A stretch of 64,000 nt of DNA. Origin: Methanococcus maripaludis C5. GTDB lineage: Archaea; AGJL01; Methanococci; Methanococcales; Methanococcaceae. How positions within the stretch are numbered: position 1 is the stretch's first letter; each line of letters starts with the position of its first letter. The DNA lies in NCBI RefSeq assembly GCF_000016125.1, contig NC_009135.1, forward strand, positions 1,302,001 to 1,366,000. The letters run 5' to 3'. Positions 57,414 through 61,546 of this stretch are shown piece after piece. Under the pieces are notes generated by a model, which was not told the DNA's origin, did not search any database, and saw nothing but the letters and a program-made list of their open reading frames with translations. A program made the translations under genes and the position numbers.

Positions 57414-58925
57414 TTATAGAAGTTCTTTTAGTGCTTTTGGCAATATTTTGATAATATCTGTTGAATTGTAATAATATCCATATTCTTTTTCCAATAAATC
57501 TCCACAATATCCGTTTATATACGTTCCACAGCATGTTGAAGGAAATGCGTCATTACAGGAATAAATTGCACCAATAATTCCGCATAATATGTCTCCAGTT
57601 CCGCCAGAGGTCATTCCCGGATTTCCAGTAACGTTCATTTTAATATTATTAGAATTAAACACGATGTCAGGACTGCCTTTTAGAACCGCGGTTGATTTGA
57701 ATTTTGAACTTTCGATATAATTTTCGAGATATTCAAATTCTTTTTTGTGTGGGGTAAATATAAAATTATTTTTGAATTCAAAATTTTCATAGTCTATTAA
57801 CTTTATTGCATCAGCATCAATAACTACTTTTCCATTTGTTTCATTAATGTAGGAATTTACAAACTCTTTTGTATCATTATTTATTGAAATTCCGCTTCCT
57901 AAAACTGTGCAATCATACGTTTCAGACAATTTTAAAAGTTCACCTACATGATTTTGACCAATATAATTTCCATTTAATTCATACGGCATTAATTCAGGAT
58001 AATTTCGAACTGTATTCATAACTTTTGAAACTGAAGCAACTGTAACAAGGTCTGCAAATTTAGAAGCTACAAGGGCCGAAAAAACGGGGGCACCATGATA
58101 TTCTTTCGATCCACCAATTATCAGCACTTTTCCATTCTGTCCTTTGTGGGAATTTTGCTTTCTTTTGTTTAAAAGGTAAAAATCCCCTTTTCCAACCATA
58201 TTTTCAATATATTTTGGAATTCCAATACTTTTGACAACAAAATTTTTATTTTTGTTCTCAGTCTTTTTTTTGTGGAGTATAACTTCCAGATCGGATTTTA
58301 AATTTCCAGTTTGGACATCTACACTGATTATTTTCAAATTTTCATAGTATTTGCCCTTTAAAGCATTCAAATAATCAACCGTTATTGAATAGGGATTTTT
58401 TAAATTTCCAGTAACTCCTGTTCCGAGCATTGCATCAATTATCAGTATTTTTTCATTTTTTAGTTCAGTTTCAATCGTTTTTAGTAACTCCATTACCTTT
58501 TCATTTTCTAAAATATTTATGTAATCCAAATTACCAAAACGTTCCATATTCTTTATGATATTAAAGTTTTTTTGAGTTTCAGAAGTTCTTAGTTTTCCTT
58601 CATTTCCAATTAATACGACAAATGTAGCAAAATTATTCGCAAGGTGTCGTGCAATAACGAAACCATCTCCACCATTATTTCCCGTACCGCATAATACATA
58701 CGCTTTTGAGAAATCAACGTTTAAATTAACAATTTCTTCAAAAACAGCCCTTCCAGCATTTTCCATCAATGTTTCTTTTGAGATTCCGTACTGTTCTGAA
58801 TTTTCGTCAATCACCTTTATTTCAAAAGAAGATATGCCCTTTTTATCATTAATCTTGAGTTTTGCTCTTAGCTGTTCAAATTTTAAAATATTTCCTCTTT
58901 CCTGAACGCATTTGATCTCTTCCAT
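57414..58925 (-). CDS. nnr: Bifunctional NAD(P)H-hydrate epimerase/dehydratase
   Basis: This enzyme repairs damaged NAD(P)H hydrates. The N-terminal epimerase half has TLMENAGRAVFEEI and VLCGTGNNGGDGFVIARHL. The C-terminal ADP- or ATP-dependent dehydratase half has KVLIIGGSKEYHGAPVFSALVA and the ribokinase-like GNPGMTSGGTGDILCGIIGAI. Its N-terminus is about 30 residues longer than usual, and the ATG has only a weak ribosome site (GCGGGT), so the true start may lie further in. The product is about 503 residues. It is divergent from the acetyl-CoA synthetase gene. Confidence 0.88.
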   Translation of the reverse strand: MEEIKCVQERGNILKFEQLRAKLKINDKKGISSFEIKVIDENSEQYGISKETLMENAGRAVFEEIVNLNVDFSKAYVLCGTGNNGGDGFVIARHLANNFATFVVLIGNEGKLRTSETQKNFNIIKNMERFGNLDYINILENEKVMELLKTIETELKNEKILIIDAMLGTGVTGNLKNPYSITVDYLNALKGKYYENLKIISVDVQTGNLKSDLEVILHKKKTENKNKNFVVKSIGIPKYIENMVGKGDFYLLNKRKQNSHKGQNGKVLIIGGSKEYHGAPVFSALVASKFADLVTVASVSKVMNTVRNYPELMPYELNGNYIGQNHVGELLKLSETYDCTVLGSGISINNDTKEFVNSYINETNGKVVIDADAIKLIDYENFEFKNNFIFTPHKKEFEYLENYIESSKFKSTAVLKGSPDIVFNSNNIKMNVTGNPGMTSGGTGDILCGIIGAIYSCNDAFPSTCCGTYINGYCGDLLEKEYGYYYNSTDIIKILPKALKELL

Positions 58926-59067
58926 ACCCGCCAACACCCGAAAAATGAATTTATTATTAACTTCAAATCCGAAAGATTCATATATTAAATTAAACTGTAA
59001 TTACCTATTGTTAATTATTATTAATTATAATTATATTTATCAAAATATAACAAACCGAGGGATATAT

Positions 59068-61176
59068 GTGAACACTCTTGAAGGAATATTCAACCCAAAA
59101 TCAGTTGCAGTAATTGGTGCATCGGAAATTGAAGGAAAAGTTGGACAGTCCGTAATGAAAAACCTGCTGAATTTCAAACAGCACGGTGGAAAAGTATACC
59201 CTATTAACAAAAAATACAATGAGGTATACGGGATTAAATGCTACGGTTCTGTTTTAGACCTTCCTGAAGCCCCAGACCTTGTAATTATATCAATTCCTGC
59301 AGAATATGCAGTAGATGCTATGGAAGAATGTGGAAAAAAAGGAGTAAAATCCGCAATAATTATTACTGCAGGATTTGCAGAAACCAACAACCACGTGTTA
59401 GAAGACAAGTTAAAGGCAATTATTGACCAGTATGGGATTAGAACAATCGGTCCAAACTGCCTTGGTGTGATAAATCTTCATAACCATTTAAACGCATCAT
59501 TCAGTAAAGAATTTTCAAACATGGGCAATATTGCATTTATTTCACAAAGTGGGGCAATTATGACTGCACTGCTCGATATTGCAAATTATTATAACCTAGG
59601 ATTTTCAAAAATCGTTAGTATGGGTAACAAAATCGACGTTCAAGAATATGAACTATTAAATTACCTTGAAAATGATCCCCACACAAAAGTTGTAGCGCTT
59701 TATATTGAAGGGTTAAAGGACGAAAAATTCATAAGTGCTGCTAAAAAAATTTCAAGGAAAAAACCAGTAATTGTTTTAAAAAGTGGAAAGTCCGAAGAAG
59801 GTGCAAAAGCTGCTTCTTCACACACAGGTAGCCTTGCAGGAAACAATGCGGTATATGATGCTGCATTCAAAAAAAGCCGTGTATTTAACGTAGAAAGCTT
59901 TGAAGACCTCGTAAATTTATTAAAAATATTTTCGGTACAACCTCCAATGAGATCCAAAAAACTTGCAGTTATTACAAATGCAGGAGGATTTGGTGTTTTG
60001 GCGGCAGATTCTGTTGAAAATTTCGGACTGGAACTTGCAGAATTTTCAGGAACAACTGTTTCTGAATTGAAAAAATATTTGCCCGATACATCAGGTATTT
60101 CAAATCCACTGGATTTAATAGGAGATGCAGATGTTGATAGATATAAACATGCATTTGAATTGGTTGAAAATGACCCAAACGTAGATGGATTACTCGCAAT
60201 ATTGACTCCACAAGGAATGACTGATGCACTCGGTGTTGCAAGAGAACTTGTAAAACTTAAAAACTACATGATCTGTAAAAAAGATAAAATTCCGATCGTT
60301 GCATCTTTTGTTGGAGGAACTTCCGTATTGGAAGCAAGAAGCTACTTACAAGAAAAGGGAATTCCATCATTTATCTGCCCGGAACTTGCAGTTAAGGCAT
60401 TGGCTTGTTTATACAGACAAAGCCACCTCATGGACAAATACGACAGTCCCGAATACTTAAATGAAATCAGAACCGAAATAGCAGATGCTAAAGCTAACAA
60501 CCAAGAAAAAATTGATGAATTGCTCGCAAATGCAAATGAAAGCAACTCAAAAGAATTTTTAAAATTGAATGGATTTGCAATCCCTGAAAAATTTGTTGCC
60601 ACATCCAAAGAAGAAGCTAAAGAATACGCTGAAAATTTAGGAAAAGTTGTAATGAAAGTTGTTTCAGCGGATATTTTGCACAAATCAGATGCAGGTTGTG
60701 TTATAATTGATCCAAGTGATGCATCCGAAGCATTTGAAACGATAATAAAAAATGGGGAAAAATATCTGTTTGATAGAAAAATCGATGGAAAAATCGATGG
60801 TGTCTTGATCGAACAGTTCGTCACCGGAAAAGAAATTATCATTGGTGCTAAAAGAGACCCCGTATTTGGACCTGTTGTTATGACCGGACTTGGTGGAATA
60901 TTCGTAGAAGTTTTAAAAGATGTTTCTTTTGGAATTACACCAATAACGAAAGAATACGCTGGAGAAATACTCCAATCCCTGAAATCATATAAAATCTTAG
61001 AGGGAGTTAGGGGCGAAAAAAGAAGCGATATCGAATTTTTAAAAGAATTAATCGTTAGAGTCGGAGTTTTAATGGAAACCTACGAAGAAATAAGTGAAAT
61101 TGATATCAATCCTGCATTCATAAAAGAAGAAGGGCAGGGCGGATTCGTTGGAGATGCATTAATCATTACAAAATAA
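59068..61176 (+). CDS. ADP-forming acetyl-CoA synthetase, fused alpha-beta
   Basis: This enzyme interconverts acyl-CoA, ADP and phosphate with acid, CoA and ATP. The 702-residue protein joins the CoA-binding alpha part (IFNPKSVAVIGASEIEGKVG, TIGPNCLGVINLHNHLN), the phosphohistidine segment SSHTGSLAGNNAVYD, and an ATP-grasp beta part (VVMKVVSADILHKSDAGCVI, FGPVVMTGLGGIFVEVLKDV). The start is a GTG after CGAGGGATATAT; an open stretch of 52 codons upstream has no ribosome site. It may use acetyl-CoA or aryl-acetyl-CoA. Confidence 0.92.
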   Translation: MNTLEGIFNPKSVAVIGASEIEGKVGQSVMKNLLNFKQHGGKVYPINKKYNEVYGIKCYGSVLDLPEAPDLVIISIPAEYAVDAMEECGKKGVKSAIIITAGFAETNNHVLEDKLKAIIDQYGIRTIGPNCLGVINLHNHLNASFSKEFSNMGNIAFISQSGAIMTALLDIANYYNLGFSKIVSMGNKIDVQEYELLNYLENDPHTKVVALYIEGLKDEKFISAAKKISRKKPVIVLKSGKSEEGAKAASSHTGSLAGNNAVYDAAFKKSRVFNVESFEDLVNLLKIFSVQPPMRSKKLAVITNAGGFGVLAADSVENFGLELAEFSGTTVSELKKYLPDTSGISNPLDLIGDADVDRYKHAFELVENDPNVDGLLAILTPQGMTDALGVARELVKLKNYMICKKDKIPIVASFVGGTSVLEARSYLQEKGIPSFICPELAVKALACLYRQSHLMDKYDSPEYLNEIRTEIADAKANNQEKIDELLANANESNSKEFLKLNGFAIPEKFVATSKEEAKEYAENLGKVVMKVVSADILHKSDAGCVIIDPSDASEAFETIIKNGEKYLFDRKIDGKIDGVLIEQFVTGKEIIIGAKRDPVFGPVVMTGLGGIFVEVLKDVSFGITPITKEYAGEILQSLKSYKILEGVRGEKRSDIEFLKELIVRVGVLMETYEEISEIDINPAFIKEEGQGGFVGDALIITK

Positions 61177-61197
61177 TATAACAAAAAAATAGGATAT

Positions 61198-61236
61198 GCT
61201 GTTTTTAATCCCTTTTAGGGTTCTTAAATTAACAGC
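61198..61236 (-). promoter_or_regulatory. Archaeal SECIS element of the HesB-like selenoprotein
   Basis: Read on the minus strand, the hairpin has lower stem GCTGTT/AACAGC, a 2-base AA bulge, stem TTTAA/TTAAA, an asymmetric internal loop GAA opposite A, a CCC/GGG upper stem and apical loop TAAAA. This is the known archaeal SECIS consensus (GAA/A loop below three G-C pairs). It lies at the 3' end of the message and its lower stem overlaps the last codons and the stop codon. It tells the ribosome to read the in-frame TGA at 61421-61423 as selenocysteine. Confidence 0.93.
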
Positions 61237-61525
61237 AGCCACCTGCTCCTTTTACTGCCAGATATTTTCCGCTGAAAACGGACTTTTTTACGATAATATA
61301 TACTTCATTTAATACCTGTCTAGCCATTTTATCGATAAAGATTCTAAAATCTTCGTCGTAAATTTTTTCATCCGTTTCGACGATTTTACTTGCGATGTCA
61401 ATCCCGAATTTAGGGCCACCTCAACCAAAACCTTCGAAAAATACGATCAAGTCTTTTGAACCCGTATCGTTTATTTTTTCGTTTATAAACTCCCTTGCTT
61501 CTTCGGAAATTGTTACAGGGATCAT
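61229..61525 (-). CDS. HesB-like selenoprotein (TGA-encoded selenocysteine at residue 35)
   Basis: The gene reads through an in-frame TGA at 61421-61423, giving 98 residues. The sequence around it is FFEGFGUGGPKFGIDIA, with U replacing a cysteine expected in HesB/IscA-like proteins. It starts MIPVTISEEAREFINEK and ends AVKGAGGCC, adding a terminal Cys pair. A-type HesB proteins carry or insert Fe-S clusters; HesB-like selenoproteins are known in methanococci. GGTGAGAAA precedes the ATG. The SECIS hairpin at its stop codon supports readthrough. A T-N11-A palindrome lies 22-46 bases upstream of the start. Automated annotation would split it or call it broken. Confidence 0.93.
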
Positions 61526-61546
61526 TTTCTCACCTATCTGTACATG

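Follow-up and report, generated by a model that had tools for sequence, protein, structure and literature searches.

The locus considered here raises the question of whether a reading frame interrupted by UGA and followed by a 3′ hairpin is a real selenoprotein gene, what its product does, and what is to be made of a stop codon that lies inside the hairpin. It belongs to a 64,000-nucleotide stretch of the Methanococcus maripaludis C5 genome (the window). The frame occupies 61229..61525 on the minus strand, with an ATG start codon at 61525..61523, a ribosome-binding site, read from the sequence as AGGTGA and neighbours, just upstream of it at 61530..61535, and a UAA termination codon at 61231..61229. 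When the frame was re-read, its 98 codons proved to be intact, as the first-pass annotation had claimed, with the UGA of codon 35 (61423..61421, context FFEGFG-U-GGPKF) as the sole internal stop; the protein sequence is MIPVTISEEAREFINEKINDTGSKDLIVFFEGFG-U-GGPKF...KGAGGCC. It is confirmed that the UGA-interrupted frame and the 3′ hairpin form a real selenoprotein gene. The explanation as a whole, a methanococcal HesB-like selenoprotein of 98 residues with the IscA/SufA/ErpA fold, together with its inferred function and a stop–hairpin overlap due to a short 3′ region, is held with high confidence.

An orthologue is present in 33 of 36 Methanococcales genomes; each copy contains a single in-frame TGA, no Cys form occurs, and codon-level reading places the TGA at the same position in all 33. 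An alignment of 19 proteins has 22 invariant columns, which lie on both sides of residue 35. Conservation past the TGA in related species, which had been proposed as a check, is strong: after the UGA, there are 12 synonymous and 0 nonsynonymous changes relative to the nearest relative, and dS is 0.49 and dN 0.02 relative to the next. These substitution patterns point to strong purifying selection on the region downstream of the UGA. In addition, the two components by which archaeal Sec decoding is recognized are both found in the genome, namely SepSecS (578 bits) and tRNA-Sec (60.8 bits, which exceeds the gathering score), and SepSecS is found in 36 of 36 genomes of the order. In three of these genomes (G011, G017 and G018), SepSecS is present and the HesB-like gene was not found; for G011, which is 99% complete, a real loss of the gene is likely. 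A contig search with the single protein as query returned no matches, and one with the alignment returned only three Methanothermococcus MAGs; in plasmids, the search for Cys homologues yielded a single weak match, from Bacillus.

The 3′ hairpin, an archaeal SECIS element, occupies 61197..61237 on the minus strand (5′-UGCUGUUAAUUUAAGAACCCUAAAAGGGAUUAAAAACAGCA-3′, 61237..61197), and its core, GAACCCUAAAAGGGA, lies at 61223..61209. It folds with the GAA/A loop and CCC/GGG stem originally described: UGCUGUU pairs with AACAGCA and, past an AA bulge, UUUAA pairs with UUAAA, followed by the GAA_A internal loop and a CCC(U)/(A)GGG apical stem. The loop is thereby flanked by an apical GC stem and by a lower stem with the required minimum of 3 bp, which is the arrangement that defines a methanogenic archaeal SECIS. 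Reporter mutagenesis carried out in vivo in M. maripaludis has been reported to identify GAA_A as the functional core of this SECIS type (PMC11881835). The element resembles the SECIS of fruA, sps and fwuB (PMC9622424, PMC11881835) in its lower stem, kink-turn-like GAA_A loop, GC apical stem, short A+U-rich terminal loop and 3′ location; unlike them, it abuts the gene, with the stop and the last codons included in its lower stem. In one relative (L004, genome G003), GAA_A is replaced by AAA_A, which matches the AAA/A variant reported for fwuB to work at lower efficiency (PMC11881835).

Thermodynamics by itself gives this hairpin unimpressive support, as its folding energy has a z of −1.65 against shuffles and 13 of 200 shuffles fold equally well; an Rfam search (gathering threshold and E ≤ 10) returned no family matching it. 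The hairpin is taken to be beyond chance because it is conserved, as seen from covariation and from the sole genome-wide match of a covariance model. Across the relatives, two-sided changes occur at 10 of 14 pairs, and the covariation score is 0.455 compared with 0.191 for shuffled alignments; none of 500 shuffles reaches this value, which also exceeds all slid registers. The covariance model (R1), which is specific to the SECIS of the hesB-like gene, was built from 16 relatives with the window's clade left out. In the 1.79 Mb genome, it finds a single site at E ≤ 1, the hesB SECIS (31.5 bits, E 0.002), and within the window, this site is matched at E 8e-5, so that the covariance check suggested for the region came out in favor of the element. 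Pattern searches of the genome for other SECIS elements gave a match rate close to that of reversed controls, and the filtered matches did not locate the other selenoprotein genes.

Three genomes of a second family, which we infer to be "Methanocaldococcus-type", retain the UGA frame and lack a recognizable SECIS (G028, G029 and G035). In G028 (L073/L120), the SECIS apex at the 3′ end of hesB is deleted and a plain lower-stem hairpin, GCTAACT-GGAA-AGTTAGC, remains, while the SECIS is intact in its closest relative, L075. Between the frames of G035 (L074) and G029 (L076), each a CDS at 1501-1785 with the UGA kept, the codons after the UGA show 7 synonymous changes and no nonsynonymous one, so that this part is still under purifying selection. 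No SECIS is present in their 3′ flanks, which are homologous, and none was found by strict scans of the sense strand over about 5 kb on each side of the gene. In both genomes, a relaxed scan revealed a GAA-GGA...UCC-A motif that lies inside the gene and surrounds the UGA, with a weak lower stem of three pairs. This motif arises because the Pro38 codon is CCA, as it is in L074, L076, L117 and L119; the codon is CCT (CCU) in 29 of 33 orthologues, and the neighboring glycine codons vary freely. Recoding of the UGA in this sub-lineage (G035 and G029, perhaps also G028) by a non-canonical element, for which the internal GAA_A motif is one candidate, is considered unlikely. The motif itself is likely a coincidence, since its lower stem is weak and a similar one occurs in L119 together with a normal SECIS. 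Assembly loss or recent decay are possible alternatives for the SECIS-less relatives.

The assignment of the protein as HesB-like is supported by several lines of evidence alongside the UGA in 33 of 33 orthologues, the covarying SECIS and the Sec machinery. NCBIfam TIGR01911 (HesB_rel_seleno) is matched at E 3.8e-16 over positions 1-90 of 92, with a score of 59.5 bits that lies under the curated cut-off of 66.35, and this family is matched by all 19 relatives; Pfam Fe-S_biosyn (PF01521) is matched at 31.3 bits, above its cut-off of 26.3. The AlphaFold2 model (pLDDT 89.3) has its best structure matches, each with a probability of 1.00, in IscA (1x0g), HI1723 (2apn) and E. coli SufA (2d2a). Selenocysteine had been placed where HesB proteins have a cysteine, and the profile alignment agrees, matching U35 to the conserved Cys within GGGCSG of the ErpA protein HI1723. 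Sequence and predicted structure support membership of the IscA/SufA/ErpA (HesB) family, with Sec in place of the first conserved Cys. The protein resembles the A-type Fe-S carriers of this family (PF01521) in its predicted fold and in the position of that residue; it is unlike them in having Sec for Cys and in the reduction of the C-terminal Cys-x-Cys to a single conserved terminal Cys. The last residue is Cys in all orthologues read but one, which has Tyr, and a second, adjacent C-terminal Cys occurs only in the window's genus. Three Cys ligands as in IscA (loop Cys plus C-terminal Cys-x-Cys) were not recovered, as only Sec35 and one conserved C-terminal Cys are present. Since the PF01521 scan of the genome misses the hesB-like gene itself, the evidence for the absence of another IscA protein from this genome comes from the scan of the whole order, where 12 of 12 matches are TGA-bearing.

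Alternatively, the UGA could be a normal stop codon or the result of decay, so that the locus would encode a 34-residue peptide or be a pseudogene next to a terminator or chance structure, and the folding energy, just modestly better than that of shuffles, is compatible with this. The presence of TGA at the same codon in every orthologue, the strong purifying selection past it and a covarying SECIS with an experimentally defined core (PMC11881835) stand against it and leave it a negligible probability; in substance, the comparative sequence evidence refutes it. A different question concerns the UAA inside the SECIS. It had been claimed that the lower stem pairs across the last two codons and the stop; in the minimum-energy fold, every base of the last two codons, UGC UGU, is paired, while in the stop (61229..61231), the U pairs and both A's form a bulge, so the claim stands for the codons and only for the U of the stop. 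The overlap had further been called unusual, which does not hold. Within the window's family (n = 19), the stop lies wholly in a contiguous helix in five members (L005, L006, L011, L012 and L014) and overlaps it partially in five more, the window included (L004 and L016 by a single base, L001-L003 via a bulge), while in the remaining nine, the helix starts beyond the stop and the distance to the core reaches 22 nt (L010). In the second family, the lower stem contains the entire stop in each of the 11 SECIS-bearing sequences read, mostly as GCTAAC.../...GTTAGC. Stop codons overlapping the SECIS motif, in this case UGA, are also on record for Lokiarchaeia (PMC11227280). The overlap is common, tolerated and variable among lineages. 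It might be supposed that termination is coupled to Sec insertion, in that a ribosome at the UAA would melt the lower stem and lower Sec insertion by the next ribosome, and the sequences with the stop wholly or partly in the stem accord with this. Such coupling is nonetheless very improbable, given the nine orthologues whose helix begins after the stop and the way in which overlap tracks how near the element lies to the stop; the lack of conservation of the overlap was the reason for dismissing termination-coupled regulation. Most simply, the overlap is a consequence of the very short 3′ region, since the hesB stop lies just 52 nt from that of a convergent acyl-CoA-synthetase-like gene (58912..61176).

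As for the function of the protein, the SECIS, whose core begins 197 nt downstream of the UGA, would recruit Sec-tRNA with archaeal SelB, and UGA35 would thereby be decoded as Sec. Sec35, which corresponds to the first conserved Cys of IscA, and Cys98 at the C-terminus may then ligate a cofactor in an A-type carrier of iron–sulfur clusters or another metal. An Fe-S carrier role is the most likely function suggested by family and predicted fold, with confidence a little above even. Counting against this role, disruption of the hesB-like gene in M. maripaludis has been reported not to impair nitrogen fixation (PMC11097638). That same mutant is also compatible with a selenoprotein acting in thiol/selenol redox chemistry or selenium handling, either through a Sec35–Cys98 selenenylsulfide or by binding selenium or sulfur. 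The single conserved C-terminal Cys in place of Cys-x-Cys fits such a role as well, and a recent review expects a redox role for most uncharacterized selenoproteins (PMC13188914). The predicted fold and family matches, however, point to Fe-S carriers, and the Sec occupies an IscA ligand position, so that a redox or selenium-handling role is regarded as a serious though less probable possibility.

The protein family and its selenium content are already published, and the window itself holds nothing new. HesB-like selenoproteins had been said to be reported in methanococci, and this is accurate: the M. maripaludis protein was tabulated (PMC2933860) and identified by mutagenesis and 75Se labelling, with its function described as unclear (PMC11097638), and bacterial Sec forms of HesB-like proteins are also known (PMC1794560). 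MMJJ_08070 of M. maripaludis strain JJ, for which the labelling and the mutant were reported (PMC11097638, PMC2933860), belongs to the same family and the same kind of organism and carries Sec by UGA; it is regarded as an orthologue on the grounds of family, size and lineage rather than by direct alignment. The presence of selenium in the protein is reported for M. maripaludis (PMC11097638) and predicted in the window's genome. For annotation, the value of the locus lies in recovering a gene that is cut in two at the UGA by standard gene calling. With the SECIS-less relatives, the boundaries of what counts as an archaeal SECIS could be put to the test. Within the order, every orthologue found has Sec at the U35 site and none has a Cys form, in contrast to most methanogenesis selenoproteins of M. 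maripaludis, for which Cys isoforms are reported.
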